Positions 1,183 through 23,459 of a stretch of 29,555 nucleotides of DNA are shown piece by piece. The first letter of the stretch is position 1. Every line of letters starts with the position of its first letter. A model generated the notes under the pieces. The model was given only the letters and a program-made list of their open reading frames with translations, did not search any database and was not told the origin of the DNA. The stretch is from Sphingomonas sp. (lineage in GTDB: Bacteria > Pseudomonadota > Alphaproteobacteria > Sphingomonadales > Sphingomonadaceae), in contig JASLBO010000036.1 in the NCBI GenBank assembly GCA_030146605.1, positions 1 through 29,555 of the forward strand, written 5' to 3'. The position numbers and the translations under genes are program-made.

Positions 1183-2118
1183 TTACCGGACCATCCGCCG
1201 CTTCTGCGCGTACAGCGCGGCGCCGTATGCGGGCGAGTGGCGGGGCTCGACGCTCACGAAACCGCCGGCACGGTCGAGCAGCGCGATAAACGTGTCGCGT
1301 ATGATCGGCTGCCGCAGCAGCACCCCGCCCGACCAGGAAATCGGCGCCGCCGCATCGTCGGGAAAGCCGAGCCGTGTCCGTAGCGCAGACGCCAGCGCGA
1401 ACAGCTCGCTTGCTGCCGCGGTCAGGATCGCGTGTGCCTGCGCGTCGCCGGCGGCGGCGGCGTTGGAAACGAGGTTGGCGAGACTGGCGATCTGGCCGCG
1501 GGGCATCCCGCTGCCGCCCATCACGCGCTCGCAAAGCTCGAGGTCGCTGCGCAGGGCAAGGGCTTGGGTGACATGCGCGTGGAGCGGGCCCTTGGCGGCC
1601 CGGCCGTCGCTCATCCGCGAGAACAGCGCGAGGCCCTGGGTAGCGATCCAGTGCGCCGAGCCCTCGTCGCCGAAGACCTCGCCCCATCCCCCGACGCGCG
1701 CCGTCAGGCCCCGGTGCTCGCCATAGCCGATCGAACCGGTGCCGGCGACGATGTTGATGCCGTCCTCGCAGGCGAGCGAACCCGCCCAGCCGCACACCAT
1801 GTCGTTGTCGCAGGTGTAGCGCGAATGGCCGAGCAGCCGGCCGCACGCCGCGTGCAACTCCGGATCGACAATGCCGTCTTCGCCATAAGCGGGCAGCCCG
1901 AAAAAGACCTGATCGAACTCGGCCGGCGCGATCCCCAGCAGTGCGCAGACCGCGCCGATGCCTTCGGCCAGCCGCCGCTCGACTTCGTCGACGCCGATCT
2001 CGAGATGATAGGTCGTCCCGGTCACCGCACGCGCGACGACCTCGCCCGCATCATCGATGCAGACGAACTCGGTCTTGGTGCCGCCGCCGTCGACACCAAG
2101 ATAACGGGCGCCGCTCAT
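1183..2118 (-). CDS. agaK: BadF/BadG-type sugar kinase, probable N-acetylgalactosamine kinase AgaK
   Basis: A 311-residue ASKHA-fold kinase. The first phosphate loop GVDGGGTKTEF sits at residues 8–18. The second, AGTGSIGYG, is near residues 125–133, followed by the GGWGEVFGDEGSAHW motif typical of BadF/BadG/BcrA/BcrD and N-acetylglucosamine kinases. The third glycine-rich block, SWSGGVLLRQP, is near the C-terminus. The family phosphorylates N-acetylhexosamines with ATP in the cytoplasm. GalNAc specificity is inferred from its neighbours agaS and kbaZ, since AgaK of this type was shown to be a GalNAc kinase in Shewanella. Its ATG overlaps the agaS stop by four bases (ATGA), so the two are probably translationally coupled. 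It is the last gene of the operon kbaZ-agaS-agaK. A GlcNAc kinase remains possible. Confidence 0.8.
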   Translation of the reverse strand: MSGARYLGVDGGGTKTEFVCIDDAGEVVARAVTGTTYHLEIGVDEVERRLAEGIGAVCALLGIAPAEFDQVFFGLPAYGEDGIVDPELHAACGRLLGHSRYTCDNDMVCGWAGSLACEDGINIVAGTGSIGYGEHRGLTARVGGWGEVFGDEGSAHWIATQGLALFSRMSDGRAAKGPLHAHVTQALALRSDLELCERVMGGSGMPRGQIASLANLVSNAAAAGDAQAHAILTAAASELFALASALRTRLGFPDDAAAPISWSGGVLLRQPIIRDTFIALLDRAGGFVSVEPRHSPAYGAALYAQKRRMVR

Positions 2119-3257
2119 GCCCGGGCAGCGTGGATCCGCACGCCCTGGACGACGCGATTGACCGCGCCGCTCGCATTGGGGTTGTCGGGCGTGAGGCCGA
2201 GAAGCTGCGATACGCGCACGCCGAGCAGCTGGGCGGGGACGATGAAGGGGAAGAGCAGGTCGGGATCCGCAGCCTGCGCCATGCCCGGAACCGTGATGTC
2301 TGCCCCGTCCGCGGGCTGCGCCGACACGACGATCACGTCGCCGCTATGCCCGTCGCGGCGAAGCTCGTCGACGATATCGAGATCGTAGAGGCGCACCAGC
2401 GGATCATTGGCCACGAACACGACGACCAGCGTCTCGGCGTTGACGATCGTCTTGGGGCCGTGGCGGAAGCCCAGCGCGCTATCGAAGCAGGTTACGACCG
2501 CGCCGTCGCTCAATTCCATCATCTTGAGCGCCGCCTCGCGGGCGAGGCCCGTGAAAACCCCGCTGCCGAGATAGACGACGCGCTTGAACCCGCGCTGGGC
2601 CAGCCGCTCGACCACCGGCTCGGCCTGCGCCAAAGCGCCTTCGACGCCGGTGGCGATCACCGGGACGCGCGGATCGAGCGCATCGACGCCGCCGAGGATC
2701 GACAGCGCGGCGAGCATCATCGCGCTGAAGCTGGAGGTCATCGCGAAGCCGCGGTCATGCGTCGCCTCGGGAAGAATGACGACGAGGCTGTTGGTGCCCG
2801 AGCGCTGGGCGAGCGCGCCCGCCGCGTTGCAGGTGACGACGAGGTGGAAGGCCTGGGCGACATGCGCGTCGAGCAGCTCGACCGCGGCGATGCTTTCGGG
2901 GCTGCTGCCCGAGCGGCCGAACGAGACCAGCAGCGTCGGGGTGTCGCGGCGAAGGTGGTAATGCGGCGCGCTGACGATGTCGGTGGTGGCGATCGCCTCG
3001 ACCGAGCGGCCGAGCAGCTGCGACAGCCACGGCGCGAGGCATTCGCCGACAAAGGCCGAGGTGCCCGCGCCGGTGAGGACGATGCGCAGCTCGGGCCGGG
3101 CGAGCAACGGCGCGACGAACGCCTCGATCGCGGTCTGCCGGGCGCGGAGGACCTGCTGGGTGGCGCGTAGCGTATCCGGCTGCTGCTCGATTTCGCGGCG
3201 CGTCCACAGCTCGGTGCCGGAAATGTCGGCGTCCGTCGCGAGAAGAGTGTCAGGCAT
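2115..3257 (-). CDS. agaS: SIS-domain galactosamine-6-phosphate deaminase/isomerase AgaS
   Basis: A 380-residue protein with two SIS (sugar isomerase) domains, the length of E. coli AgaS. The first domain has LTGAGTSAFVGE at residues 61–72 and SFGRSGSSPESI at 112–123, the usual phosphosugar-binding Ser/Thr loops. The second SIS domain includes YLGSGVFTGLAREAALK. AgaS converts galactosamine-6-phosphate to tagatose-6-phosphate plus ammonia in the cytoplasm. The start was placed at the ATG at 3255–3257 (MPDTLLATD) because it gives the family N-terminus. It overlaps the end of kbaZ by eight bases. A longer in-frame start at 3359 would add 34 residues that duplicate kbaZ coding sequence in another frame and was discarded. 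The gene downstream is agaK, overlapping by four bases. Confidence 0.88.
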   Translation of the reverse strand: MPDTLLATDADISGTELWTRREIEQQPDTLRATQQVLRARQTAIEAFVAPLLARPELRIVLTGAGTSAFVGECLAPWLSQLLGRSVEAIATTDIVSAPHYHLRRDTPTLLVSFGRSGSSPESIAAVELLDAHVAQAFHLVVTCNAAGALAQRSGTNSLVVILPEATHDRGFAMTSSFSAMMLAALSILGGVDALDPRVPVIATGVEGALAQAEPVVERLAQRGFKRVVYLGSGVFTGLAREAALKMMELSDGAVVTCFDSALGFRHGPKTIVNAETLVVVFVANDPLVRLYDLDIVDELRRDGHSGDVIVVSAQPADGADITVPGMAQAADPDLLFPFIVPAQLLGVRVSQLLGLTPDNPNASGAVNRVVQGVRIHAARA

Positions 3258-4533
3258 GGGGATAGCAGGCTCCGTGATAGGCATCGAGCGTTGCGCAGAC
3301 ATGCGCCATGACCAGCTCGGCAGGGTCCAGAGAAAAATCGCCGGCGCGGACGGCGGCATAGGCCAGTGGCAGATACTGGCTGACCAAAGGCAGCGACGGC
3401 ATTGTCGCGCGCAGATTGTCGAACAGGCGCGCCTGCGCCGCGGCGATCGCCGTGTCGGGCCAGTAATAGCGGATGCGATCCGAGAGGCTGTACTGGAGCT
3501 GGAGAGTCAGCGCGTCGCCGGTGGCGTGATAGTATTTCTGCCAGTTCGCGGGATCGGCGCGCATGCGATCGAGCGCCACCGCGCGCAGCCCGGCCCGTCG
3601 GTCCGCCGGCACGGTCTCGGCTTCGATCGCGTCGAGCGCCCACAGCGCCTCGCGCAGCGCGAAGGTGACCCCGGGGCCGACCTTGAGGATGGCGAAATGG
3701 TCGCGGACCAGCGCGGCGAGGCCGGCGGGGGTCTGATAGTCGGTAGAATGCGCCTCGAAGACGAGGTGGTCCACGGGCTCGATCGCGCGGCTGAGTTCGG
3801 TGGCGCGTTCGGGGCGGTATTCGACGACTTTGTCGTGATCGAATTCGACGCCGGGCTGGACCACCGTCGCGATTACCCGTTCCCAGGCGTCGGCAAGGCC
3901 GAGGTCGCGGAACAGGTCGCGGTGCATGTCGACGGTGGCAATTGCGGCTTCGGGGGCGGTGACCGCGAGGCCCTCGAGATCCTCGGCGGCGCCGCCCGGG
4001 ACGGGCACTTCGGTGCCGATGACATAGACCGGGGCATCGGCGCGATCCCCGGCAAAGGCCTCCTCGGCGGCACGGCACAGCCGGGCGGCGCGCTCTCCGA
4101 TCACGCGTTCGGGAAGCGGCACCGGATCGTCGGCGCAGCTCATCGAGCAATCGAGATGGATCTTGCGGAATCCGGCGCGGACATAATCGCCGACCATGAT
4201 CTCGGCCTTGTCCATCGCCTGGCCGGCGGGCAGTGCGGTCCATGCGTTGGGGCCGAGATGGTCGCCGCCGAGCACCAGTCGCTCGATCGGGAAGCCGGTC
4301 TTGGCGGCGATCGATTCGACGAAGACGCGGAAGTCGGCGGGGACCATGCCGGTATAGCCGCCGTCCTGATTGACCTGGTTCGAGGTCGCTTCGATCAGCA
4401 CGACCGGCTGCGCGGTGCGCAGCGCGTGGCGGAAGGTCGCCTCGATCACCAGCGGATGCGCCGAGCAGACCGAGGTCACGCCAACCTGCTCGCCTGCCTT
4501 GTGACGCTCGACGATGTCTCGAATCAACTCCAC
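3250..4533 (-). CDS. kbaZ: D-tagatose-bisphosphate aldolase class II non-catalytic subunit (KbaZ/GatZ/AgaZ)
   Basis: 427 residues, essentially the length of E. coli KbaZ (about 426). The N-terminus MELIRDIVERHKAGEQVG, then SVCSAHPLVIEA, GYTGMVPADFR, LGGDHLGPNAW and IHLDCSMSCADD, are the characteristic KbaZ/GatZ blocks. In E. coli this subunit stabilises the catalytic class II aldolase KbaY/GatY, which cleaves tagatose-1,6-bisphosphate. The same family has also been annotated as tagatose-6-phosphate kinase AgaZ, so its exact role is unsettled. The start is a GTG at 4531–4533 with GGAAGGGAG just upstream. It is the first gene of kbaZ-agaS-agaK, and an AgaR-like operator lies 40–70 bases upstream. 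No KbaY/GatY partner is visible in the window. Confidence 0.88.
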   Translation of the reverse strand: MELIRDIVERHKAGEQVGVTSVCSAHPLVIEATFRHALRTAQPVVLIEATSNQVNQDGGYTGMVPADFRVFVESIAAKTGFPIERLVLGGDHLGPNAWTALPAGQAMDKAEIMVGDYVRAGFRKIHLDCSMSCADDPVPLPERVIGERAARLCRAAEEAFAGDRADAPVYVIGTEVPVPGGAAEDLEGLAVTAPEAAIATVDMHRDLFRDLGLADAWERVIATVVQPGVEFDHDKVVEYRPERATELSRAIEPVDHLVFEAHSTDYQTPAGLAALVRDHFAILKVGPGVTFALREALWALDAIEAETVPADRRAGLRAVALDRMRADPANWQKYYHATGDALTLQLQYSLSDRIRYYWPDTAIAAAQARLFDNLRATMPSLPLVSQYLPLAYAAVRAGDFSLDPAELVMAHVCATLDAYHGACYPHA

Positions 4534-4574
4534 CTCGGCTCCCTTCCGTGCCTTGGATAACGCATCAAGATGCT

Positions 4575-4604
4575 AAACGCAATAAACCGAAATATAACGA
4601 AACT
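4575..4604 (-). promoter_or_regulatory. AgaR-like operator A, upstream of kbaZ
   Basis: Read on the minus strand, this 30-base AT-rich stretch contains AGTTTCGTTATATTTCGG followed by TTTATTGCGTTT. It has TTTC/TTTN units at about 10-base steps plus the TTGCGTT element shared with the other sites here. It sits in the 69-base gap between the permease stop and the kbaZ GTG, which implies that kbaZ-agaS-agaK has its own repressible promoter. Similarity to the E. coli AgaR TTTC-repeat operator is from memory, and binding is inferred. Confidence 0.55.
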
Positions 4605-5511
4605 ATGTAATTTCTGCTTGCTGGTCGGCGCCGGCGTCGGGTTCGAGCGCGAGGAGCAGCGATGCAACCAGCGCCAACACGATGCCGAGCGTCTTGAGCG
4701 GACCGGGCACCACGCTGAGGACCGCCAGAGACAGCAAAGCCGTGGCGAGCGGAGCGCCTGCATTGGCGAGCGGGGCAACGAGGATCGCCTTGCCGTAGCG
4801 GAAGGCGAACACCAGAGTCAGCGCGCCGATCGCGTTGAGCGACTGAATGACGGTCGCGAGCCCGGGACCGTCCCAGCCCCAATTGATCGGGGCGGTGAAG
4901 TCGGTCATCGCCCAAGCGACCGGTGCCAGCAGCAGGCCGGAGATCGTCATGTAGACGAAGATGCTCTCGGCCGAGGTGACGTGGTTCGCCGCCTTCATGA
5001 AATAGGCCTGGATGCCCCAGCACAGCATCACGATCAGCGCGGGCACCAGCCAGGTCAGCGACGAGCCGCCGGCGCTTCCGGGCGCGAAATCGAAGGTCGG
5101 CAGCGCGAGCAGCGCAAGCACGATGCCGATCGCGCCGAGCCGCCCGGTGCGCTCGCGCATCACCAGCGTCGAGAGCGCGATCGTCACCACCGGCGACAGC
5201 GAGATGACCGGGAAGATCAGATAAGCGGGGCCGCGCGCGACCGCATAGAACAGCAGCATCTGGCCGCCGGCGCCGAGCAGGCCGATGGCGAGGCCATAGG
5301 CGACCGCACGCGGCGAGCGATCGAGCTTCCACCCGGCCTGGGCGAGCACGACGAGTGCCGGCGGGATCATGGTCAGCGCCCAGACGCAATAGACCAGGGT
5401 TTCGGGGAAGCCGCGCTGCGGCGAGAGCCCGGAAAACGCGCCCCAGATGCCCCACAGGACGACGGTGACGAGCGCGTAGACCAGCCAGGAGCGGCTCGAG
5501 GGAGCGGTCAT
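4603..5511 (-). CDS. DMT superfamily (EamA-type) permease, candidate sugar/amino-sugar transporter
   Basis: 302 residues made of about ten hydrophobic helices in two EamA repeats. The first starts WLVYALVTVVLWGIWGAFSG and the second starts LTWLVPALIVMLCWGIQAYF. Both carry the W-G near the first helix that marks this drug/metabolite transporter family. The protein would sit in the inner membrane. The ATG at 5509–5511 overlaps the stop of the alpha-galactosidase gene (ATGA), so the two are probably coupled. A longer in-frame start at 5826 lies inside the glycosidase gene and was rejected. No MFS, PTS or ABC sugar permease is visible in this locus, so this is the best candidate for moving the released monosaccharide into the cytoplasm. 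The substrate is inferred from context only. Confidence 0.8.
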   Translation of the reverse strand: MTAPSSRSWLVYALVTVVLWGIWGAFSGLSPQRGFPETLVYCVWALTMIPPALVVLAQAGWKLDRSPRAVAYGLAIGLLGAGGQMLLFYAVARGPAYLIFPVISLSPVVTIALSTLVMRERTGRLGAIGIVLALLALPTFDFAPGSAGGSSLTWLVPALIVMLCWGIQAYFMKAANHVTSAESIFVYMTISGLLLAPVAWAMTDFTAPINWGWDGPGLATVIQSLNAIGALTLVFAFRYGKAILVAPLANAGAPLATALLSLAVLSVVPGPLKTLGIVLALVASLLLALEPDAGADQQAEIT

Positions 5512-7598
5512 GCCGGAGTTCCGCCGACGGGAGTCGCACGGACCAGCAGGAAGCGCTGGAACGACGCGCGCAGGCTGTTGGCGCCGCGCGCCGCGGTGCC
5601 GAGCGCCGCGCCGGTGAAGCCGTCGGTCAGGGTATAGCGCCCCTCGCCGAGGCCGCGCAGTTCGATCGGGCCGTCCCACGTGTCGGCGTAGAAGGCGTAG
5701 TGGAGCGCGCCATCCTTGGCGATCGCGTGCGCCTCGGGCTTGTCGAAGCCGATGTCGTAGAGGCCGCCGAGATACTCGCCCCTGGCGAGCATGTTGGCGC
5801 GATAGAGGTCGATCCACTTGCGCCACATCGCTTCCTTGGCGGGCGTCAGCACATAGCCGCCGGGCGGAAGCTTGTCGGTGGGGTTGGGGGTGTCGGCGGG
5901 CCAGGTGAACTTGGTCGAGGGGATCGCGCCGATGCCATAGGTCGAGGCAAAGTCGTTGCGGCCGTCGCTAAGCTCGACATGGTCGCCGGCATAGGGCGCC
6001 GACGGGCCCATCAGCGCCTTGAAGGTCTTGCCCTTGGTGCGGACCTGCCACGAGGAGAGCGGATCGGACGCGGGCGTGCTGTTGGTCCCGATGAGGTTAT
6101 GGAAGGCGAAGCTGTCGCCGCACGGGCAGAGCTCCATGACCGCGTCCGGATTGCTCGCAATCGCCTCGTCGTAGAGCGCTTTCCAGAAGTCCTGGAGCTT
6201 CTCGTACGATTCCTCGGGACGGGCATGGTTGTGCGCCGGATTGTAGCAGGGCGCGACGGCATTGAGATGCTGGCCGTCGAGCTTGAGCCCCTCGAACCCC
6301 CATTCGCCGATGATCCGGCGGACGAGTTCGCGGTGGAAATCGATCGTCGGCTGATAGGCCGGGCACAGGGTGAAGGCGTCCCACCAGGTGACTTTCTGGC
6401 GCGCGCCGCTGCGATCGAGCAGCAGCATGTCGGGGCGGTCGCGCAGCAGATCGGTGCCCGGATCGACCGCGAGCGGCGCCAGCCACAGCCGCGGCCGCAT
6501 ACCGTCGGCCTTGATGCGATCGGCAAAGGCCTTGATGTCGGCGCCTCCGCGCGGGAAGCGCTTGCGATCGACATACCAGTCGCCCTCGGCGGTCTGCCAG
6601 CCGTCGTCGATCACGGCCCATTCAAAGCCGAGTTCCTTGGCCTTGGGCAGCGTGCCGTACACCTGCTCGGGGGTGAAGTTGCGCTCATAGCCCCAGGCGC
6701 ACCAGATCGGCGCATAGCTCGATTCGGGGATCTTGGGGGCCGCGACGCCGCGCTCGGCCATGATCCGGCGATAGGCGTCGAGCGGGCGGAAATAGTCGCC
6801 GATATGCGCCATTACGAAGCCGACCGGCAGGGTCAGCGTCTCGCCCGGGGCGAGCCGCACGGCCCCGTCGCCCGACATGCCGAGGCGGGTGCCGTTCGGG
6901 CCCGCGGCGATCGGCAGCGAGACAAGCCGCGGGACCGTTTCGACATGGCCGATGGCGAGCCCGACATCGCGGCGCCAGGCGACCGCGACCGGGGTGCCGC
7001 CGCCATAATCCGAGCTGTTCATTCCCATGAAGTTGCGCTGGTCGAAGCCTGGCTTGAGGCGCTGCACCCAGTCGCGGCGATCGGGGTGCGAGGCCCCCGA
7101 GAAGCTCCAAGCGCCGCCGGGCGCGGCGAGCAGCTCGTGCGTCGCGAGCTTCCAGCCGGCGACCTCGATCGGCGCCGATCCGGTGTTGCGGAAGCGCGCC
7201 TCGTAGAGCGCCAGCCCGGGATAGCGATCGAACAGGCTGATGCTCAGATCGAGCTCGACGCCGCCGCTCGCGGTAGCGCGGATGCGGTGCCGGCGGCCGG
7301 GGCCATGCGGGCCGCTGGCAGCCGCCTCGGTGTGATCGAGCAGCAGGAAGCGGTCGACCGCGCCGCGATCGGTGAGCAGCGTCGCTATGGGCGCGGCCGG
7401 CGTGATCGCGCGGCCGTCATGGAGCAGGCGCGCGCGCAGCTGCGCGTCGAGGTCGATCGCCAGAACGCCGTCGGAGATGCGGACGCCGGCGGGCGCGGCG
7501 GCCCAGGTGCGGGTGCCGAGCGCGGGCGTGGCGACGATCGCACCGCTTGCCATCAGCGACCGCAGCATCGTGCGACGAGTGACGATATTCGACGGCAT
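5508..7598 (-). CDS. GH36-type alpha-galactosidase (melibiase-like), exported with Tat-like signal
   Basis: 696 residues. The N-terminus MPSNIVTRRTMLRSLM followed by ASGAIVATPAL looks like a twin-arginine signal (T-R-R-x-M-L-R), suggesting periplasmic export. An N-terminal beta-sandwich (about 40–280) precedes a TIM barrel with IWCAWGYERNFTPEQV, VIDDGWQ (near 329) and GFEGLKLDGQHLN. D441 in KLDG is in the place of the GH36 nucleophile. The acid/base is less obvious: D495 in CPCGDSF or D512 in PASDPLSSW are candidates. A C-terminal beta domain follows. The enzyme should release terminal alpha-linked galactose, or possibly GalNAc. The start was chosen at 7598 because it gives the signal peptide and has GGGAGAG upstream; the frame opens earlier but without a better start. 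It is first in a unit with the DMT permease, and an AgaR-like site lies upstream. Confidence 0.8.
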   Translation of the reverse strand: MPSNIVTRRTMLRSLMASGAIVATPALGTRTWAAAPAGVRISDGVLAIDLDAQLRARLLHDGRAITPAAPIATLLTDRGAVDRFLLLDHTEAAASGPHGPGRRHRIRATASGGVELDLSISLFDRYPGLALYEARFRNTGSAPIEVAGWKLATHELLAAPGGAWSFSGASHPDRRDWVQRLKPGFDQRNFMGMNSSDYGGGTPVAVAWRRDVGLAIGHVETVPRLVSLPIAAGPNGTRLGMSGDGAVRLAPGETLTLPVGFVMAHIGDYFRPLDAYRRIMAERGVAAPKIPESSYAPIWCAWGYERNFTPEQVYGTLPKAKELGFEWAVIDDGWQTAEGDWYVDRKRFPRGGADIKAFADRIKADGMRPRLWLAPLAVDPGTDLLRDRPDMLLLDRSGARQKVTWWDAFTLCPAYQPTIDFHRELVRRIIGEWGFEGLKLDGQHLNAVAPCYNPAHNHARPEESYEKLQDFWKALYDEAIASNPDAVMELCPCGDSFAFHNLIGTNSTPASDPLSSWQVRTKGKTFKALMGPSAPYAGDHVELSDGRNDFASTYGIGAIPSTKFTWPADTPNPTDKLPPGGYVLTPAKEAMWRKWIDLYRANMLARGEYLGGLYDIGFDKPEAHAIAKDGALHYAFYADTWDGPIELRGLGEGRYTLTDGFTGAALGTAARGANSLRASFQRFLLVRATPVGGTPA

Positions 7599-7689
7599 CT
7601 CAAGGGCTCTCCCGCTCGGGCGCCGCCGCACCCACAAGCGACGCGCCATTGAGAAAGAGCTTGCACGAAGCAACCATGCGGCGCAAATC

Positions 7690-7704
7690 AAAACGCAACA
7701 AAAT
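7690..7704 (-). promoter_or_regulatory. AgaR-like operator B1, upstream of GH36
   Basis: On the minus strand this reads ATTTTGTTGCGTTTT, followed by GATTTGCG. It contains the TTGCGTT core also present in the sites before kbaZ and before both receptors. It lies about 90 bases upstream of the GH36 start in the 145-base divergent gap 7599–7743. Repressor binding is inferred. Confidence 0.45.
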
Positions 7705-7709
7705 CGAGC

Positions 7710-7724
7710 GTTTCGTTTCGATTT
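7710..7724 (+). promoter_or_regulatory. AgaR-like operator B2, upstream of amidohydrolase
   Basis: The sequence GTTTCGTTTCGATTT lies 20–34 bases before the amidohydrolase ATG. The tandem TTTCG units match the TTTC-repeat pattern of E. coli AgaR operators. Being so close to the start codon, a bound repressor would block promoter clearance or early elongation. It is separate from, and oppositely oriented to, the site at 7690–7704. Confidence 0.5.
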
Positions 7725-7743
7725 ACATCGATGGGAGTTGCGG

Positions 7744-8844
7744 ATGCAGATTTGGCGCAGCGTGCTGCTGGTGGGGACCGCGACGTTGATCGGGGCAACC
7801 GCGCCCGAGCGCGGCTACAGCGAAGCCGATTTCGTGCAGGTCGCCAAATTCGACGCGCATGTGCACGCCAATGTGAACGATCCGCGCTTCCTCGAAGTGG
7901 CCAGGCGCGACGGCTTCCGGATGCTCTCGATCAACGTCGATTATCCCGATTTCCCGCCGGTGCCCGAGCAGGCGGCAATCGCCGAGGCGATGCGCAAGGC
8001 AGATCCGCGGCTGCAGTTTGCCACCACCTTCTCGATGCAGGGCTTCGGCACGCCGGGCTGGACCGAGCGGACGATCCGCACGATCGACGCCGCCGTCGCG
8101 CGCGGCGCGGTTGCGGTGAAGGTCTGGAAGAATATCGGGATGGTCGAGAAGGATGCGCAGGGCAAGCGCGTGTTCATCGACGATCCGCGCTTCGACGGGG
8201 TGATCGCGCATCTCGAGCGGCGCAAGATCCCGATCATCGTTCACCAGGGCGAGCCCAAGAATTGCTGGCTGCCGCTCGACCAGATGACGACCGAGAACGA
8301 CCGCGCCTATTTCAGCGCGCATCCCGAATATTACATGTACCTCCACCCCGAGGAGCCGAGCTACGAGGCGCTGATGGCGGCGCGCGACCGCTTCGCCGCG
8401 CGACACCCCAAGCTCGCCTTCGACGGCGCGCACATGGCGAGCCTGGAGTGGAGCGTCGACGAGCTCGCGCGCTTCCTCGATCGCCATCCCAACGCCGTGG
8501 TCGATCTCGCCGCGCGGATGTCGAACCTGCAGGCGCAGTCGGTCGGCGACCGCGCGCGGGTGCGCAATTTCTTCATCCGCTACCAGGACCGCATCCTCTA
8601 CGGCACCGACCTGACCGACAGCCCCCCCGATCCGGCGGCGCGCGCGCAGAACCCGCCGGCGACCAACGACTTCGCGCGCGAGGCGGACCGCGTGTGGCGC
8701 AACGACTGGCGCTATCTGGCGACGCCGCTCCGCCAGCGAGTCGATGCGATCAAGGCCGATGCCCAGGGGCTCGATCTGCCGCGCGGGGTGATCGACAAGA
8801 TCTACAGCAAGAATGCCAGGCGCTTCTTCGCGCGGATGACCTGA
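7744..8844 (+). CDS. Exported amidohydrolase (Amidohydro_2-like)
   Basis: 366 residues. A short hydrophobic N-terminus (MQIWRSVLLVGTATLIGATA) suggests a signal peptide or membrane anchor. The TIM-barrel metal site is visible: FDAHVHAN (H-x-H, near residue 38), a lysine in KVWKNIG, IIVHQGEP, FDGAHMAS and LYGTDLTD, supplying the His/His/Lys/His/His/Asp ligand set of the amidohydrolase superfamily. Such enzymes hydrolyse lactones, amides or act as decarboxylases, and the substrate here is unknown. The ATG at 7744 is preceded by GATGGGAG. The gene diverges from the GH36 unit, has an AgaR-like operator immediately upstream, and ends facing the regulator gene at a hairpin. Co-regulation makes it a candidate for a missing amino-sugar or lactone step, but this is speculative. 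Confidence 0.75.
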   Translation: MQIWRSVLLVGTATLIGATAPERGYSEADFVQVAKFDAHVHANVNDPRFLEVARRDGFRMLSINVDYPDFPPVPEQAAIAEAMRKADPRLQFATTFSMQGFGTPGWTERTIRTIDAAVARGAVAVKVWKNIGMVEKDAQGKRVFIDDPRFDGVIAHLERRKIPIIVHQGEPKNCWLPLDQMTTENDRAYFSAHPEYYMYLHPEEPSYEALMAARDRFAARHPKLAFDGAHMASLEWSVDELARFLDRHPNAVVDLAARMSNLQAQSVGDRARVRNFFIRYQDRILYGTDLTDSPPDPAARAQNPPATNDFAREADRVWRNDWRYLATPLRQRVDAIKADAQGLDLPRGVIDKIYSKNARRFFARMT

Positions 8845-8852
8845 GCGGGACA

Positions 8853-8880
8853 GGGTGGGCGCCGCGGCGCCCGCCCACCC
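8853..8880. terminator. Bidirectional terminator-like hairpin
   Basis: Arms GGGTGGGC (8853–8860) and GCCCACCC (8873–8880) pair perfectly around a 12-base GC-rich loop. The hairpin lies between the convergent stops of the amidohydrolase (8844) and the regulator (8893). There is no U-tract on either side. Confidence 0.5.
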
Positions 8881-8892
8881 ACGCCGGGCGCG

Positions 8893-9672
8893 TCAGGCGA
8901 TGTGGAGGCGGAAGCCCGCGCGTTCGGCCGCCGCCTGCATGCCGTCGGCATCGTCGGCATCGGTGATCAGATCGTCGATCTCGGCAACGTTGAGGATCCG
9001 GTGGAGGCAGACGCGCCCGAACTTCGACTTGTCGGTGACCGCGATGACCTGGCGTGCGGCCTTGACCATCTTGCGATTGAGCATCGCCTCGGGCTCGTAA
9101 TGGGTGGTGATGCCGCGTTCGAGATCGAAGCCGTCGACCCCGAGGAACAGCTTGTCGACGTGGAGGTCCTCGAGCGCGTTCTCCGTCTGCGCGCCGTAGA
9201 AGGCGCGGTTGCGGCGGCGCAGCGCCCCGCCGAGCATGACGACGCGGATCCGCTCCTTGCGGGCGAGCGCGCAGAGGATGTCGAGATCGTTGGTGAGAAC
9301 GGTGATGTCCTCGTCGTCGGGCAAGTGGTGCGCGATCTGGAGCGTGGTGGTGCCCGAATCGAGCACGATCGAATCGCCGGGCTGGACCATCGACGCCGCG
9401 AGCGCGCCGATCCGCGCCTTTTCGTCGATATGGCTCGCGCGCTTGGTCTCGAGTGGGGGCTCGGCGACGACGTTGACCGCGTCGGCGGAGATCGCGCCGC
9501 CGTAAGAGCGCTCGGCGACGCCGCGCTTCTCGAGATAATGCAGGTCCTTGCGGATCGTCTGCATCGACACGCCGAAGCGCGTGGCGAGCGGCGCAACCTG
9601 CACGCTGCCGCGCTCGCGGACGAGCGCGCTGATCTGTTGACGTCGTTCGCTGGTGTCCCGGATTATGGACAT
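8893..9672 (-). CDS. agaR: DeoR/GlpR-family transcriptional repressor, AgaR-like
   Basis: 259 residues, close to E. coli AgaR (269). The N-terminal DeoR winged helix-turn-helix covers about residues 8–60: ERRQQISALV, then VAPLATRFGVSMQTIRKDL and YLEKRGVAERSYGGAI. The C-terminal DeoRC effector domain includes EKARIGALAASMVQPGD, LDSGTTTLQIAHHL and LGGALRRRNRAFYG. Such proteins bind phosphosugars and repress sugar catabolic genes. The AgaR name is inferred from its position beside kbaZ-agaS-agaK and from AgaR-like operators in the locus, including two between it and the divergent receptor, which suggests autoregulation. The start is the ATG at 9670–9672 with GGGAGGG five bases upstream. The open frame extends far upstream to 10380 inside the receptor gene, but that part is not protein-like. 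Confidence 0.82.
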   Translation of the reverse strand: MSIIRDTSERRQQISALVRERGSVQVAPLATRFGVSMQTIRKDLHYLEKRGVAERSYGGAISADAVNVVAEPPLETKRASHIDEKARIGALAASMVQPGDSIVLDSGTTTLQIAHHLPDDEDITVLTNDLDILCALARKERIRVVMLGGALRRRNRAFYGAQTENALEDLHVDKLFLGVDGFDLERGITTHYEPEAMLNRKMVKAARQVIAVTDKSKFGRVCLHRILNVAEIDDLITDADDADGMQAAAERAGFRLHIA

Positions 9673-9732
9673 GAAACCCTCCCGAAACTCCCACTTATCA
9701 GCGCTTGATGGCGCCGACAACACGCTGGCGAG

Positions 9733-9752
9733 GTTTCGTTTAGTTTCTGTTT
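9733..9752 (+). promoter_or_regulatory. AgaR-like operator C1 (regulator / receptor 1 divergent region)
   Basis: GTTTCGTTTAGTTTCTGTTT is the best match in the window to the TTTC-repeat AgaR operator pattern. It overlaps the first bases of the TTGACA box of the receptor promoter and lies about 60 bases upstream of the regulator ATG, so one site could control both directions. Confidence 0.6.
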
Positions 9753-9780
9753 GACAGTTTCGCGTCATGCGCGTTACGAA
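9751..9780 (+). promoter_or_regulatory. Candidate sigma70 promoter of TonB receptor 1
   Basis: A consensus -35 box TTGACA lies at 9751–9756, with a weak -10 TACGAA at 9775–9780 after an 18-base spacer. The AgaR-like sites C1 and C2 overlap the -35 and -10 boxes respectively, as expected for a repressed promoter. The -10 is a poor match, so the exact start site is uncertain. Confidence 0.4.
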
Positions 9781-9789
9781 ACGCAATAT
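9774..9789 (-). promoter_or_regulatory. AgaR-like operator C2
   Basis: TTACGAAACGCAATAT on the plus strand; its complement carries TTGCGTTTCGTAA. The 11-base block ACGAAACGCAA recurs at 12862–12872 in front of receptor 2, and TTGCGTT recurs before kbaZ and GH36. It lies about 55–70 bases upstream of the receptor 1 ATG. Confidence 0.5.
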
Positions 9790-9841
9790 ATCGCGCTGGC
9801 CGGTTGGCCGGGGCGGCGCTACCTGGAGCGAGGGAGTTGTG

Positions 9842-12697
9842 ATGACCCAACGGTGTCTGTTCCGCGATCTGGTGATGGGAAGCGCGAGCGCAACGGCGCT
9901 GCTGGCGGCCTCGAGCGCGCTGGCGCAGAGCGACGGCGCGCCGGTCGCCGCCGCCGCCGCACAAACCGAAGAGCAGGCGGGATCCGCAGATGAACCCGAA
10001 ATCGTCGTCCGCGGCGTGCGCGGCAGCCTGTTGCGATCGATCCAGGCCAAGCGCGACGCCGACACGATCGTCGACGCGATCTCCGCCGAGGAGCTCGGCA
10101 AGTTCCCCAACCGCAACGTCGCCGAGGCGCTGGCCAACATCCCCGGGGTGACCGTCGGCCGCGACGGCCGCGGTGAGGGACGCGACATCACGATCCGCGG
10201 GCTCGGCGACAATTTCGCGATCACCACCCTCAACGGACGCATCCTGCCGACCGACGGCTCCGACCGTTCGTTCGCGTTCGACGTGCTGCCCTCCGAGATC
10301 ATCTCCGGCGCGCAGGTCCAGAAGGCAGTGCGCGCCTCCGAGCTCGAGGGCAGCATCGGCGGCAATGTCGACCTGCGCACTGCGCGTCCGCTCGATCGCC
10401 CGGGGCTCCAGCTCTCAGCGGCGATCGAGGGCCAGTATAACGACCTGGTCGAGAAGGGCGGCTACAAGATCTCGGGCGTGGTCAGCACGACCTTCGCCGA
10501 CGACACGATGGGGTTCCTGATCGGGGCGAGCTACAACAAGTACAAGTTCCGCACCGACAATCTCGGCGAATATTCGATCACCGATGGCAGCGAGGCGGGG
10601 TATGGCGTCGACTTCGACGGCGACGGCCAGGTCAATCCCGACGAAAACGGGCCGGCGTTCATCTGGCCGGACTATTACAGCGTCGGCTATGTCCGCGGCG
10701 AGCGCGAGCGGATCGGCTCGGCGGCGGCGTTCCAGTGGAAGCCGTCTTCGAGCTTCGAGCTGACGATCGACGGGCTGTACAGCCGCTACGACGTCACCCA
10801 GAACAATTACCGCGCCTCCAACTATCTCAACCCGCTCGGCGACGATGGCGGGCTGCGCTGGGATCCGGCGTCGATCGAGACCGACGCAAACAACGTCGTC
10901 ACCAACTTCGCGATCGACGATCTGGTCACCGAAGTGCTCACCACCGACGAGCCGCGCAACAGCCAGACCTGGCAGCTTGGCGGGGCTATCGACTGGCGCG
11001 CGACCGATCGGCTCAAGTTCGCGCTCGACGGCTATTTCGGCAAGGCGCGCGACAATACCGGCGGGCAGAACCGCTTTGTCGTCGCAGGCATCCCCGGCGC
11101 TTCGGCCGAGTTCGCGACGCGCCCCGGCGGCATCCCCGATCTGGCCATCACGATCCCCGGCGGCCGATCGCTCGACCAGGCGACCAATGACGATTTCCGC
11201 GCGCATTATATCGGCATCCAGGGCCAGAATATCGAGGACGAAACCAAGGGCGCCAAGCTCGACGCGACCTATGAACTGGGCGGCGTGTTCAAGTCGATCA
11301 GCCTGGGTGGAGCATGGACCGATCGCGAGAAGACCGTCGCGACGATCGACAACCAATACACCACTTCGTGCAATTATTGCGGCTACCCCTTCACGTTCGG
11401 CCAGCTCGGCGCCGACGTCGTGCGGCCGGGAAGCGGCAACGGCATCCTGGGCAAGCTGGGCGGCAATTTCCCCCGCAACTTCCCGATGTTCGACATCGAC
11501 ACCTATCTCGCGGCGCTGCCGCGCGCGGACAGCAATCCGGCGATCCTCGACCCGAACAGTTGCCTCGATGCAACCGGCGCACCGATCCCGGGATGTTCGC
11601 TGTCGCCCTATCCGGCGGGCTATTCGACGCAGGTGATCGAGCCCGATCTGCCGGCATCGTACCGGATCAAGGAGCGGACCTGGGCAGGATATTTCCAGAT
11701 CAACCTCGCCGGCGCGCGCTGGCGCGGCGAGATCGGCGCGCGGCTGGTCTCGACCAAGGTGTCGTCGACCGGCTATGGCGCGACGATCGCGAGCATCATC
11801 CCGCGGGCCGGCACGCAGGACAATGACGTCGACTTCAATCCCGTCGACGCGATCAACGGCGGCGGTGACTATACCCGGCTGCTGCCCGCAGCGAACTTCG
11901 CCTATGACATCAGCGACGGGCTGCGCGTGCGGCTCGCCGCGTCGCAGGCGATCTCGCGGCCGACCTTCGGCGAGCTCTCGCCCGCCAAGGACGCAACCTC
12001 GGCGCAATCGGGCACTTACATCATCTACGATGCGGGCAACCCGAACCTCAAGCCGACCGAGGCGGACCAGCTCGACATCTCGTTCGAATATTACCCGTCC
12101 AACCGGCTCGCGCTGACCCTGGCCGGCTTCTACAAGCATATCACCAACTTCGTCTCGACCGTGCCGGTCGACGTGCTGATCACCCCCACCGCGCAGCCGG
12201 CCAATCAGCAGCAGAGCTTCCCGTTCGTCGAATATCAGGTGGTGAACGGCGACGCAGCCGACGTCTATGGTGTCGAGCTCGGCGGCCAGTATTTCCTCGA
12301 CAACGGTTTCGGTGTGCAGGCCAACCTGACCTATAACCGCTCGCGCGCGAAATCGGGCGACGTCACCACCGACCTGCCCGGCGCGATCCCGTTCTCGGCG
12401 AACGCCAAGCTGTTTTACGAGAAGAACGGCATCGGCGCGCAGGTCTCGTACAGCTACCAGTCGCGCTACGTGTACGCGCAATCGGGCAATCTCGGCTATC
12501 TGCCGGTCAAGGAAGACCCGTATCACGAGATGTCGGCGAGCCTGTCGTACGACGTGACCGACAATGTCTCGGTCTATATCCAGGGATCGAACCTGCTCGG
12601 CTCGGACATCCGGCGATTCAACACCTATCGCAACGTGCCGAACTTCTACGAATATTCCGGGCGCTCGTTCTTCATCGGGGTGCGCGGGCGGCTCTGA
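9842..12697 (+). CDS. TonB-dependent receptor 1 (Caulobacter/Sphingomonas glycan type)
   Basis: 951 residues. The signal peptide runs from MTQRCLFRDLVMGSASATAL to about SALAQ. The plug domain has EIVVRGVRGSL, a TonB-box-like start, then DTIVDAISAEELGKFPNRN, VAEALANIPGVTVGRDGRG and TIRGLGDNF, the hallmarks of the TonB-Xanth-Caul receptor group (TIGR01782). The rest is a 22-strand-type outer-membrane barrel rich in alternating aromatic strands. It would import oligosaccharide across the outer membrane using TonB energy. The ATG at 9842 was chosen because it gives the signal peptide and follows GAGGGAG; the frame opens at 9767 but overlaps the putative operator. The last residues are VRGRL, lacking the usual terminal aromatic. 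Its promoter region carries two AgaR-like sites. Confidence 0.88.
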   Translation: MTQRCLFRDLVMGSASATALLAASSALAQSDGAPVAAAAAQTEEQAGSADEPEIVVRGVRGSLLRSIQAKRDADTIVDAISAEELGKFPNRNVAEALANIPGVTVGRDGRGEGRDITIRGLGDNFAITTLNGRILPTDGSDRSFAFDVLPSEIISGAQVQKAVRASELEGSIGGNVDLRTARPLDRPGLQLSAAIEGQYNDLVEKGGYKISGVVSTTFADDTMGFLIGASYNKYKFRTDNLGEYSITDGSEAGYGVDFDGDGQVNPDENGPAFIWPDYYSVGYVRGERERIGSAAAFQWKPSSSFELTIDGLYSRYDVTQNNYRASNYLNPLGDDGGLRWDPASIETDANNVVTNFAIDDLVTEVLTTDEPRNSQTWQLGGAIDWRATDRLKFALDGYFGKARDNTGGQNRFVVAGIPGASAEFATRPGGIPDLAITIPGGRSLDQATNDDFRAHYIGIQGQNIEDETKGAKLDATYELGGVFKSISLGGAWTDREKTVATIDNQYTTSCNYCGYPFTFGQLGADVVRPGSGNGILGKLGGNFPRNFPMFDIDTYLAALPRADSNPAILDPNSCLDATGAPIPGCSLSPYPAGYSTQVIEPDLPASYRIKERTWAGYFQINLAGARWRGEIGARLVSTKVSSTGYGATIASIIPRAGTQDNDVDFNPVDAINGGGDYTRLLPAANFAYDISDGLRVRLAASQAISRPTFGELSPAKDATSAQSGTYIIYDAGNPNLKPTEADQLDISFEYYPSNRLALTLAGFYKHITNFVSTVPVDVLITPTAQPANQQQSFPFVEYQVVNGDAADVYGVELGGQYFLDNGFGVQANLTYNRSRAKSGDVTTDLPGAIPFSANAKLFYEKNGIGAQVSYSYQSRYVYAQSGNLGYLPVKEDPYHEMSASLSYDVTDNVSVYIQGSNLLGSDIRRFNTYRNVPNFYEYSGRSFFIGVRGRL

Positions 12698-12719
12698 GCC
12701 GGCGGCGGGACGCGCCGGC
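12698..12719 (+). terminator. Terminator-like hairpin after receptor 1
   Basis: GCCGGCG (12698–12704) and CGCCGGC (12713–12719) form a seven-base-pair stem immediately after the receptor 1 stop. No U-tract follows, so it may be a weak or Rho-assisted terminator, or an mRNA-stabilising end. Confidence 0.35.
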
Positions 12720-12763
12720 CGGGTCGAGTCGCTCAGGCGCGTCGCTGCGTTAACCAAGTTTAC

Positions 12764-12783
12764 TTTCGTTTTGTTTCCTTGCG
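12764..12783 (+). promoter_or_regulatory. AgaR-like operator D1, upstream of receptor 2
   Basis: TTTCGTTTTGTTTCCTTGCG combines the TTTC-G-TTT-G-TTTC repeat seen at 9733 with the TTGCG element. It lies just upstream of a good -10 like hexamer (GATAAT, 12805–12810). Confidence 0.55.
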
Positions 12784-12810
12784 TTCATCATTCAGTATTT
12801 ATCAGATAAT
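12782..12810 (+). promoter_or_regulatory. Candidate promoter of receptor 2 operon
   Basis: GATAAT at 12805–12810 matches TATAAT in five of six positions and sits in an AT-rich segment unusual for this window. The -35 is unclear: CGTTCA lies at 17-base spacing. The operator-like repeat D1 overlaps the -35 side. This would drive receptor 2 and probably the genes to 21944. Confidence 0.35.
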
Positions 12811-12859
12811 TCTTACTTGCGAATGGGATCGAATCGTGCGAGCCAGTGCAATACCAATG

Positions 12860-12873
12860 TAACGAAACGCAAG
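12860..12873 (-). promoter_or_regulatory. AgaR-like operator D2
   Basis: TAACGAAACGCAAG on the plus strand (complement CTTGCGTTTCGTTA) shares ACGAAACGCAA with the site at 9774–9789. It lies 35–48 bases before the receptor 2 ATG and about 50 bases downstream of the candidate -10, so it could act as a roadblock or second site for DNA looping. Confidence 0.5.
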
Positions 12874-12907
12874 ATTTCAACTAAATTGCATGGGGGGACG
12901 ATTTACT

Positions 12908-15900
12908 ATGAGACGTGCGCGCTTTCGCAATGCCCTGGTCGCGGGCACCGCGCTTTGGCTGATCGGTACCGCTGCTCCCGCGCTTGCCCAGGATGCGGCG
13001 GACACGCAGGCAGAGGCTGGCGAGACTGACGAATCCGAGGACATCGTCGTTACCGGCCAGCGCCGGGCGCTAGCCACCGCCGCCAAGCTCAAGCGCGATG
13101 CGGACACGGTGGTCGATTCGATCACCGCTACCGACATCGGCGCCTTCCCCGACAAGTCCGTCGCCGAAGCGCTCCAGCGCGTCCCCGGCGTCACCGTCAT
13201 CCGCTCTGCCGCGCGGGACGACGTGATGCACTATTCGGCGGAACCCTCGGGCGTGGTCATTCGCGGGCTCCAGCAGGTCCGCTCCGAATTCAACGGCCGC
13301 GACAGCTTCTCGGCGACTTCGGGCTATGGCCTGAGCTGGAGTGACGTGTCGCCGGAGTTGATGGCGGGCGTCGACACCTACAAGAACCAGACCGCCGAGA
13401 TGATCGAGGGCGGCATCGCCGGCACGGTCAACCTGCGGACGCGCAAGCCGTTCGACCAGGAGGGCCGCGTCCTGACGCTCAGTGCGACGCAGAACTACGG
13501 CGATATCAGCCAGCGCGCGACGCCCGATATCTCCGGCCTGTTTTCCGATCGATGGTCAACCGGCATCGGCGAGTTCGGCCTGCTGGCCAACGCCGCCTAT
13601 TCGCAGGTGGTGACCCGGTCGCAAGGCATCACCACGCCGCGCATCATGCCTTTCGCCCCCGGCGTCTATGAAGACCGGATGGTCTACATCCCCTCGGGGA
13701 TCGGCTTCTCCGAGACCGACTATGACCGCAAGCGCTTCGGCATCGCGGTCGCCGGCCAATGGAAGAGCAACGACGGCGGGCTGGTCGCTACCGCCCAGTA
13801 CAACCGCTCAAGCTACAAGACGACCTGGGTCGAGCACCAGCTGCTCAGCTATTGGACGTGGGTCGATCCGGCCAACACCAATCACTCGACGGTGTGGACA
13901 GATCCCACCCTGATCCAGTCGCCGCGCGCGCCGGGGCCGACTGCACCGAACGGGCCACCCTTCACCTTCCGCGAGGACGGGCTGTTCCAGACGGGCACCA
14001 TCACCACCTCGCGCGGGGGTTGGGGCTTTGGCGGCATCGCCGACTGGGCAACCGGGGAATATACCCCCGGATCGACCGATAACCTCGGGGTGCTGCCCAA
14101 TGGGCTGCCCCTGTATCAGCCGTGCCTCAATACCGATGTCACCACCGGCAATCGGCCTTGCCGTGCCGGCTCCGCACTGGACATTGCCACGCGCTATTCG
14201 AACGAGGACCGCGTCATCTCCGACGCTTCGTTCAACCTGGTCTGGCAGGCCACCGACCGACTGATGTTCAACTTCGACTATCAGCGGGTGAAGGCGACCA
14301 ACTATAATTACGACATCACCTTCAACATGCGCACCTGGGCGGACATCAACCTGGACCTGCGCGGCGCGACCCCGCAGGTTACGTTGCTGTCGCCGTCGGG
14401 CTACAACACCACCGGCCCGGACTGGCTGACCAATCCGAACAATTACACCCCCGCCTCGGCGATGGACCATATCACCGACAGCAGCGGGCAGATGGACGCG
14501 TTCCGTCTCGATGGCGGCTACAGCTTCGACTCGCCATGGCTTTCCGAGATCCGCTTCGGCGGCCGCTATGCCGACCGGCAGCAGGAGCATCAGTGGTCGG
14601 TCTACAACTGGCAGAGCATCACCTCTGACTGGCAGACCAACCCGGCGGGTTCGGTGTTCGCGAACAGCGGGCGCAACACCATCGGACGGGACGCAAACGG
14701 CAATCCGATCCTCTTCGAGGGCTATGGTTCGCCGTATTGGGAAGTTCGTCCCTACGGCCAGCAGATCTTCGGCGGCGGCGTGATCACCAACCCGAACCTG
14801 TTGTTCATCCGCTCGGACATCCTCGCCAATCCGAACGAAACCTATGACCGCTTCAGCATCGGCGGGCAGACCAACGAGGGCGGCGTCGCCTCTTCGCAGT
14901 GGAACCCGATCTGCCACCGTCCCGAAGAGATCGAGGGCAGCTGCTTCACCCCGGGTGAGCTCCTGAACGTGCAGGAGAAGACCAAGTCGGGATATGTCAT
15001 GGCCAAGTTCGGCGGCGACAGCGCGACGCTGGGTGGCGTCAGCGTGACCGGCAATATCGGCGTCCGCTACGTCAATTTGAGCACGCGCAGCGAGGGTTCG
15101 CTGATCTACGCCGATGCGTTCACGCCCGCGGAGACGCTCTGCGTGCCGCTGACCCCGGAGCAGATCGGTCAGCTCGGTCCGGGTCAGTATGCGATCTCGC
15201 CGGGTTGCCTTGCGGCGGGCTCGACCCAGGACCGGGCCTTCTCGACCGGCGGCAGCCTTGCCTCGACGGTGGAGAACAAGAACGAGTACTGGCTGCCCAG
15301 CCTCAACCTGCGCTTTGGCCTCGGCGACGATCTGTTCGTGCGCTTCGCGGCATCGCGGGCGATCTCCAAGCCCGACATCGGCCTGCTGAAGAACTTCACG
15401 CAGATTCGGCGTGGCGGCCTGCCGCAGTCGGAGATCCGCGTCGGCAATCCGAACATCGTTCTCGATGCGGGCGGCAACCCGATCGCCTATCGCTATGCCT
15501 ATACCGCGCAGACCGGCAATCCGCGCCTGCGGCCGATCCAGGCGGATCAGTTCGACATCTCGATCGAGAAATATGACGGTGACGTCGGGTCGTTCAGTGT
15601 CGCCGGTTTCTACAAAAGGTTCCGCGACTATATCCAGAACGGCACCTTCTCCGTGCCGGTAACCAACGGCGGCGTTACGCGTGACGTCATCGTTACCGGG
15701 CCGGTTAACGGGGATGGTGCCTCGATCTATGGTTTCGAGGCCGCCTTCCAGCGGTACTTCGACTTCCTGCCCGGCCTGCTCAGCGGCTTCGGTGTCCAGG
15801 CGAACTACACCTACATCAAGAACGACGGCGTCAAGAACGCACAGCTGGTGGTCGACACCACCGGCGGCAGCGCGGTTGCCCGCTCGGCGCTGTCCGGCAT

Positions 15901-17839: not shown

Positions 17840-17877
17840 CGCGGCGACCGGGCTCTCCCTCCAATACAGGTCCCGCC

Positions 17878-23455: not shown

Positions 23456-23459
23456 TCTG

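Follow-up and report, generated by a model that had tools for sequence, protein, structure and literature searches.

Glycan loci of sphingomonads and Caulobacter commonly combine a TonB receptor, a Trp_halogenase-type protein and a glycosidase, and their regulators are mostly of the LacI or GntR type. AgaR regulons have reportedly been described across the Proteobacteria by Leyn et al. in 2012, with a common CTTTC word repeated ahead of the aga genes in several copies and arrangements, and this work is also said to be a precedent for a TonB receptor in a non-enterobacterial GalNAc pathway. Passages of PMC5018945 describe E. coli AgaR as binding in tandem to several repeats in the aga intergenic regions. 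For Shewanella, passages of PMC2996990 present a GalNAc pathway with a GalNAc kinase, agaS and the TonB-dependent outer-membrane receptor omp-Aga, and a table in this paper shows no newly assigned regulator for it. No AgaR operators in sphingomonads appeared among the literature matches listed, where “agar” picks up the growth medium as well, and PMC5343134 carries no mention of AgaR; we do not claim their absence from print.

The locus investigated here lies in a window of 29,555 nucleotides from a Sphingomonas sp., which is the whole stretch of DNA analysed. Its regulator gene (8893–9672, minus strand) encodes a DeoR-family repressor of 259 amino acids with HTH_DeoR and DeoRC domains. The curated NCBIfam model NF040755 identifies this protein as AgaR (297.6 bits, cut-off 260), as the earlier note had supposed, and E. 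coli AgaR shares 45% identity with it over 247 residues. Among solved structures, one relative was found (7l6l, the sensor domain from a repressor of the deoxyribose operon, 54.9 bits). No relative was found in viral contigs, and 54 plasmid records carried partial matches of 60–80% identity, none of them spanning 80% of the query.

Five further genes on the minus strand are kbaZ/agaZ (3250–4533; TIGR02810, 623 bits against a cut-off of 569), the sugar isomerase/deaminase gene agaS (2115–3257; SIS domain), a BadF-type kinase that adjoins agaS in relatives and is a candidate agaK (1183–2118; PF01869), an EamA-type permease present in 76 of 81 loci and a candidate GalN/GalNAc importer (4603–5505; PF00892), and a Melibiase-like, GH36-type glycosidase (5508–7598; PF02065). 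AgaS is recognised by TIGR02815 with 465 bits, below the cut-off of 529; this score and the SIS domain both come from the longer frame 2115–3359. GalNAc catabolic genes thus stand behind the operator sites described below. The plus strand carries an Amidohydro_2 hydrolase (7744–8844; PF04909), two TonB-dependent receptors, TBDR1 (9842–12697; TIGR01782, 605 bits on the longer frame 9767–12697) and TBDR2 (12908–16276, the frame used for Pfam; TIGR01782, 580 bits on the longer frame 12890–16276), a Trp_halogenase-family protein 3′ of TBDR2 (16343–17839; PF04820), and a GH27-type alpha-galactosidase/N-acetylgalactosaminidase with an NPCBM domain (17836–19803, longer frame 17548–19803; PF16499, PF17801, PF08305). 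A search for a dedicated GalNAc-6-P deacetylase (agaA or agaAII) found no NagA-type family among the window proteins scanned, a subset of the open reading frames; the Amidohydro_2 protein looks secreted, its N-terminus resembling a signal peptide by eye.

Four gaps harbor the operators: 4534–4602 before kbaZ, 7599–7743 between the GH36 and amidohydrolase genes, 9673–9841 between agaR and TBDR1, and 12698–12907 before TBDR2. The flanking gene starts (GH36 7598, amidohydrolase 7744, TBDR1 9842, TBDR2 about 12908) were set from frames and by eye. The earlier note had listed seven stretches with TTTC and TTGCGTT elements in these gaps; all seven are present where it placed them. Each operator consists of direct repeats in tandem, approximately TTTCGTT every 10 bp in two or three copies, on a strand that varies from site to site. 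We rejected TTGCGTT as a separate element because in the kbaZ operator it occupies the third of the 10-bp steps and is a variant of the same repeat. The two elements proposed earlier therefore exist as given but belong to a single motif.

To score these sites, we used a 24-column matrix trained on relatives' genomes, excluding both the window and the relative closest to it. The kbaZ operator O1 (4573–4606, minus strand) consists of three tandem repeats at 10-bp steps, TTTCGTTATA, TTTCGGTTTA and TTGCGTTTAG, overlaps the last four bases of the EamA gene and yields two overlapping matches of 27.6 and 26.4 bits in one array. The GH36/amidohydrolase gap contains O2a (TTTTGTTGCG TTTTGATTTG; 7679–7704, minus strand) and O2b (GTTTCGTTTCGATTTA; 7707–7735, plus strand, 21.4 bits). 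Between agaR and TBDR1 lie O3a (9730–9756, plus strand, 24.9 bits) and O3b (TATATTGCGTTTCGTAAC; 9767–9790, minus strand), and TBDR2 is preceded by O4a (TTACTTTCGTTTTGTTTCCTTGCG; 12760–12783, plus strand, 26.9 bits) and O4b (CTTGCGTTTCGTTAC; 12848–12876, minus strand, 18.9 bits). All eight window sites of at least 12 bits, counted with starts at least 12 apart, fall into the four gaps and none outside; so do the matrix's best 12 window matches, the 13th (10.95 bits) lying inside TBDR2. The five top scores compare with a maximum of 20.3 bits in 200 shuffled windows, while the weak sites O2a (7679–7702, 13.2 bits) and O3b (12.6 bits) are within the shuffled range, whose 95% point is 13.65 bits. 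A single operator family across the four gaps, as first suggested from the letters alone, is thus recovered by a held-out matrix.

Word counts gave a similar picture. Of six TTTCGTT copies on both strands of the window, five are within the four gaps and the sixth (14834) is inside TBDR2; TTGCGTT likewise has five of six copies there, the other being at 25591. All four copies of AAACGCAA are in the gaps, one in each, and ACGAAACGCAA, noticed earlier as identical at 9776 and 12862, has only these two copies. Markov copies of the window (orders 1–3, 100 each) contained on average 1.4–1.6 TTTCGTT, 1.9–2.3 TTGCGTT and 0–0.02 ACGAAACGCAA, so that single 7-base words exceed chance only a few-fold, which does not hold for their placement and for the longer words.

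The operator is conserved in relatives. In 7-mer counting over 81 loci, TTTCGTT ranks first or second in enrichment before agaR (66/81 regions, 4.9 expected), before kbaZ (34/76, 2.9 expected) and in the GH36/amidohydrolase gap (56/60, 2.3 expected), and TTTCG pairs at 10-bp spacing number 30 against 0.4 expected. As in the CTTTC-type description, TTTCG repeats of two to three copies stand before agaR, before kbaZ and in other gaps. Over the same loci the matrix finds 316 sites of at least 16 bits in 80 of 81; seven of these are in homologous coding sequence, which makes up 58% of the DNA. At this threshold the sites mark operon heads, being present before TBDR2 in 7/7 cases and before agaS and agaK in 0/68 and 0/65, all held out from training as was E. 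coli, with 2/1514 in a coding control. A site is missing before kbaZ in 25/74 loci and before agaR in 12/79, counts that, like those for the GH36/amidohydrolase gap, take in training regions. A matrix from distant clades recovered 28/33, 31/33 and 25/33 sphingomonad regions, and one trained on kbaZ alone recovered agaR in 64/81 and the GH36/amidohydrolase gap in 45/60; the near-to-distant test was weaker (agaR 33/48, kbaZ 17/43). Invariant columns are more frequent inside the operators than outside: 25/30 versus 13/41 for O1 (four species), 32/35 versus 61/112 for O2a and O2b, 30/37 versus 64/147 for O3a and O3b, and 23/32 versus 59/181 for O4a and O4b. In E. coli K-12, the best 12 matches of the relatives-trained matrix all fell into the two aga promoter regions (598 of 12,501 bases), and the best five exceeded the maximum of 200 shuffles.

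In relatives the sites are also restricted to aga loci. In 24 genomes above the AgaR cut-off, with agaR positions matched to contigs by eye, exact TTTCGTTNNNTTTC occurs 27 times within 10 kb of agaR (54/Mb) and 15 times elsewhere (0.14/Mb), compared with 94 times in 118 genomes without AgaR (0.21/Mb); it is missing within 10 kb of agaR in 7 of the 24. The exact pattern has a background of its own, since a reversed control gave 35 matches against the 94. With one mismatch allowed, four genomes gave 11 matches, seven in aga stretches, against four for the control. No matrix site of at least 16 bits was found in other genome stretches totalling 400 kb, be it upstream of 319 open reading frames or in 117 gaps free of them. 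The matrix scan for commonness and conservation that the earlier note had named as its refuting test, run in relatives, leaves its proposal standing. At exact-match stringency an extended regulon is rejected, as the off-locus density in genomes with AgaR does not exceed that in genomes without. In 30 genomes, 26 off-locus exact matches, assigned to loci by coordinate range alone, divide into 19 in 18 stretches and seven in short loci. Six of the 18 stretches (L122, L126, L127, L128, L130 and L137) contain a site of at least 14 bits, so there may be a few true outlying sites: in L137 (S. yunnanensis) a 25.7-bit site directly precedes a TonB receptor, and the others lie near RecA/RadA-like ATPase, CsgG-type, Cons_hypoth698 and unassigned genes.

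Based on sequence evidence, AgaR very probably controls the amino-sugar genes, including the two outer-membrane receptors. We have high confidence in the explanation as a whole, namely that AgaR binds the tandem operators of the four gaps, represses their promoters and is released by an amino-sugar phosphate. Without substrate, AgaR would occupy all four gaps and block the divergent promoters of agaR itself and TBDR1, those of GH36 and the amidohydrolase, that of TBDR2 with its downstream genes, and that of kbaZ-agaS-agaK. Its DeoR C-terminal domain would sense an amino-sugar phosphate arising as GalNAc/GalN is broken down, releasing the protein. Repression of the whole locus, as originally suggested, fits the predicted operons from about 1.2 to 22 kb but not the receptor cluster for vitamin B12 that begins at about 23.2 kb, which has its own cobalamin riboswitch and no site of at least 12 bits.

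A second AgaR-like DeoR paralogue, about 35% identical (three copies compared), might bind these sites instead of or alongside AgaR. It was found at E 1e-60 in 15 of 151 genomes, six of which also carry AgaR, and in 11 of the 15 an AgaR-matrix site of at least 16 bits lies within 601 bases around its start, always on the paralogue strand, against a background of none in the 400 kb of other stretches. Nevertheless, we regard such crosstalk as unlikely at the present locus: 18 of the 24 genomes above the AgaR cut-off lack the paralogue at this E-value, 14 of these 18 keep an exact site no more than 10 kb from agaR, and the clustering of exact sites at agaR argues against it. Tentatively, and with some doubt, the TTTCG tandem operator could be the code of a whole branch of DeoR repressors; in sphingomonads the paralogue would use a near-identical operator, and where a genome has both regulators, the uptake of amino sugars and that of plant sugars may influence each other's regulation. 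In one locus (L143), the paralogue gene is next to transketolase-like, FGGY-kinase, apiosidase-like and rhamnosidase genes.

O3a runs into TTGACA at 9751–9756, the presumed –35 region of TBDR1. Because this repeat lies just upstream of it, AgaR might activate the receptor promoters, or both activate and repress them, and the spacing is indeed fixed in 19 of 81 regions upstream of agaR, related species among them, where TTGACA begins 17 bases downstream of the repeat's first base. No TATAAT-type –10 region or convincing σ70 promoter was seen in the three gaps scanned (GH36/amidohydrolase, agaR/TBDR1 and TBDR2), the sole promoter-scan match lying inside agaR (9637–9666). We consider activation improbable, still more so than crosstalk, because passages of PMC3668189 describe E. 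coli AgaR as a repressor whose deletion raises agaA and agaS, and because O3b is positioned about where the –10 region and start would lie and only a short distance separates O4b from the start of TBDR2. A reading of the repeats as T-rich or promoter-like words that arose by chance and serve no regulator can practically be dismissed: such words are widespread in intergenic DNA, but the site-free 117 gaps, the 10-bp phasing, the footprint conservation and the E. coli match all speak against it.

The predicted repression by AgaR gives a supported and testable regulon for a sphingomonad GalNAc-glycan locus. Predicted co-regulation would tie the two TonB receptors, the EamA permease and the two glycosidases to GalNAc-type substrates, and the operator matrix could help to annotate receptors without a known substrate.

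A known regulatory system is thereby confirmed and extended, and not a new one described; the novelty is modest because a Shewanella GalNAc TonB receptor and tandem AgaR repeats of E. coli are already in print. The extension of an enterobacterial regulon to TonB-receptor loci, as the earlier note put it, is not new in kind, judging from the passages on omp-Aga in PMC2996990. Like that Shewanella pathway, the locus unites kinase, agaS and a TonB-dependent receptor; it differs from Shewanella and other proteobacterial systems in its two TIGR01782-type receptors, the Trp_halogenase-type, GH27/GH36-type and EamA proteins, and the alphaproteobacterial operators that precede them. With other sphingomonad and Caulobacter glycan loci it shares the adjacent receptor, Trp_halogenase-type protein and glycosidase, whereas its regulator is of the DeoR/AgaR type. 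The E. coli regulon, with the agaR, kbaZ and agaS promoters, resembles it in its DeoR-family AgaR, in carrying TTTCGTTT-type repeats in tandem every 10 bp, and in having agaR and kbaZ as targets. In place of a PTS, of which no gene was found among the window proteins scanned, the window has TonB receptors, GH36/GH27-type enzymes and an EamA permease, and its agaS follows kbaZ and has no separate site. The base before TTTC is C in five of the six best E. coli matches, whereas G, in 58% of 117 contexts, is more frequent than C in the aga loci compared here; the operator word itself is kept between alphaproteobacteria and E. coli.

The predicted operators lie around agaR, a DeoR-family regulator gene (8893-9672, minus strand) whose product is 96% identical to the regulator of Sphingomonas xinjiangensis, the closest relative of the window, and 97% identical to a protein labelled S. 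hankookensis, which marks the window as part of a Sphingomonas-type genome. Genes for a BadF-type kinase, AgaS, KbaZ, an EamA permease and a GH36-type enzyme are also on the minus strand, and the plus strand carries an amidohydrolase (7744-8844, PF04909), the TonB-dependent receptors TBDR1 and TBDR2, a Trp_halogenase-type protein, GH27, DUF4832 and HAD. A frame at 7731-8966 over the amidohydrolase gave no match in a Pfam search and was rejected as a gene, the Amidohydro_2 gene occupying a different frame. Among 81 loci (the window and the best 80 of 259 confirmed loci with AgaR relatives), the gene set around agaR is conserved: eamA, kbaZ and gh36 are each present in 76 (some loci are truncated by contig ends), agaS in 74, the amidohydrolase in 73, the TBDR1-type receptor in 72 and agaK in 68. 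The EamA-type permease (4603-5505) is a candidate inner-membrane GalN/GalNAc importer. Further along, a tRNA gene (22037-22109, minus strand) separates the glycan genes from a vitamin B12 cluster (23252-27022) independent of them, in which a cobalamin riboswitch (106 bits) precedes a BtuB-like receptor and a periplasmic binding protein.

The earlier note had described seven TTTC/TTGCGTT repeats in four gaps between 4.5 and 12.9 kb (before kbaZ, GH36/amidohydrolase, agaR/TBDR1 and before TBDR2), and every stretch was found as described. The window holds four copies of AAACGCAA, one per gap, and five of the six copies of TTTCGTT (1.4-1.6 expected) lie inside gaps. Plain 7-mer counts in 81 agaR, 76 kbaZ and 60 GH36/amidohydrolase gap regions, made without the reader's motif, put TTTCGTT at the top of the ranking for the kbaZ and gap regions; for the agaR regions it came second to the overlapping TTCGTTT. 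These counts are the independent discovery step, since the 24-column matrix was seeded with a consensus hand-written from the relatives' words. It was trained on 211 regions (185 used), with the window and the S. xinjiangensis locus held out; its top 12 window matches all fall in the four gaps. The top five score above all 200 shuffled windows; of the listed sites, the two with the lowest scores (13.2 and 12.6 bits) lie within the shuffled range. With the threshold set so that 0.5% of 2,377 coding stretches exceeded it, training on distant clades recovered 28/33 agaR, 31/33 kbaZ and 25/33 gap regions of sphingomonads, and the reverse recovered 33/48, 17/43 and 24/27; the low kbaZ value indicates that kbaZ sites are absent or different in many distant clades. 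Training on kbaZ only recovered 64/81 agaR and 45/60 gap regions, and training on the gap only 57/81 agaR and 47/76 kbaZ regions.

Aligned on TTTCGTT, the kbaZ regions (32 contexts, near-duplicates removed) read GTTTCGTTTT.TTTCG.TTTATTGCGTT, with three repeats at steps of exactly 10 bp and TTGCGTT as the third; agaR (51 contexts) and gap regions (34 contexts) hold two. Across 176 regions without near-duplicates, same-strand TTTCG pairs occur 30 times at 10 bp (0.4 expected) and TT[TG]CG pairs 29 times at 20 bp (1.5 expected); TTTCG pairs at 5 and 6 bp are enriched too (13 and 8). Because 10 bp is one helical turn, the repeats would share one DNA face.

Sites of at least 16 bits within 300 bases upstream, counted with the window and the S. 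xinjiangensis locus left aside, mark the heads of operons: agaR (67/79), the TBDR1 type (62/72), TBDR2 (7/7), GH36 (54/74), the amidohydrolase (50/72) and kbaZ (49/74). Lower counts were obtained for GH27 (6/27) and eamA (7/74), and in all seven loci of the latter (L045-L048, L059, L062, L063) eamA adjoins agaR divergently. No such site precedes agaS (0/68), agaK (0/65), the halogenase (0/9), DUF4832 (0/4) or HAD (0/1); the coding control gave 2/1514.

We also examined how common the motif is elsewhere in relatives. Exact TTTCGTTNNNTTTC matched 62 times in 30 relatives (reversed-pattern control 9), 36 times in the 20-kb aga stretches of 24 of the 30 genomes and 26 times elsewhere; TTTCGTTTNGTTTC with one mismatch gave 11 matches in four genomes, 7 of them in aga stretches (control 4). 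Among 151 genomes of the group, the 24 with an AgaR over the cut-off have 42 matches; 27 of these, spread over 17 genomes, are no more than 10 kb from agaR and 15 lie away from it (0.14/Mb). The 118 genomes without an AgaR match contain 94 (0.21/Mb; reversed control 35), and the 9 with a weaker relative only contain 7. No site of at least 16 bits was found in 20 stretches of 20 kb chosen by coordinate from 7 genomes. Conservation in related loci likewise held: in four close species, 83, 81, 91 and 72% of site columns are invariant in the four gaps, versus 32, 44, 54 and 33% outside.

Off the aga locus, S. yunnanensis carries a 961-aa TonB receptor (L137:3022-5978, also L141:9822-12778) that shares 28% identity with TBDR1 and is directly preceded by a 25.7-bit site; judged from sequence, it may be a distant member of the regulon. 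Sphingomonas-group genomes also encode a second AgaR-like DeoR paralogue of about 35% identity (L140, L142, L143, L144-L158), with 15 such genes below the AgaR cut-off in the 151 genomes. When 601 bases around each start were scanned with the AgaR matrix, 11/15 had a site of at least 16 bits, all of the tandem TTTCG type, on the paralogue's strand and 183 to 309 bases upstream of where the matched stretch starts; the remaining four reach 14.6, 11.0, 10.0 and 1.1 bits. The paralogue adjoins a transketolase-like gene in all three loci read further, one of which (L143) additionally has FGGY-kinase, apiosidase-like and rhamnosidase genes.

The repeats had been proposed as operators through which the DeoR-family protein represses the locus; the sites, their conservation and, in relatives, their restriction to aga loci are now computed, and AgaR remains the protein predicted to bind them. 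In the agaR/TBDR1 gap, operator O3a (9730-9756) runs into TTGACA at 9751-9756, and 17 bases further on comes O3b (9767-9790). The 17-base offset to TTGACA recurs in 19/81 agaR upstream regions, related species included. The simplest reading would be that AgaR blocks the TBDR1 promoter, a step that we infer, since a promoter scan recognised no –10 box in this gap. The sensor-domain stretch DSGTTT, common to the window AgaR and E. coli AgaR in an alignment, fits a sugar phosphate as the presumed inducer.

In 12,501 bases of E. coli K-12, the 12 best matrix matches fall between agaR and kbaZ and upstream of agaS, two regions of 598 bases in all, five of them above the maximum of 200 shuffles, and 8 of 10 copies of TTTCGTT lie in the same two regions. 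The base preceding TTTC is mostly C in the E. coli aga sites, whereas it is more often G in the loci compared here. Leyn et al. reportedly reconstructed AgaR regulons through Proteobacteria in 2012, with a shared CTTTC word. E. coli AgaR is described as binding at aga promoter regions (PMC3668189; PMC5018945), with tandem repeats (PMC5018945), and a Shewanella TonB receptor was assigned to a GalNAc pathway in 2010 (PMC2996990). Because the regulons, tandem repeats and Shewanella receptor were already known, the window locus is an added example, well supported as a further AgaR regulon predicted from sequence; the details that it adds to the known AgaR systems are that the repeats are phased at 10 bp, that the sites are locally restricted and that the code is shared.
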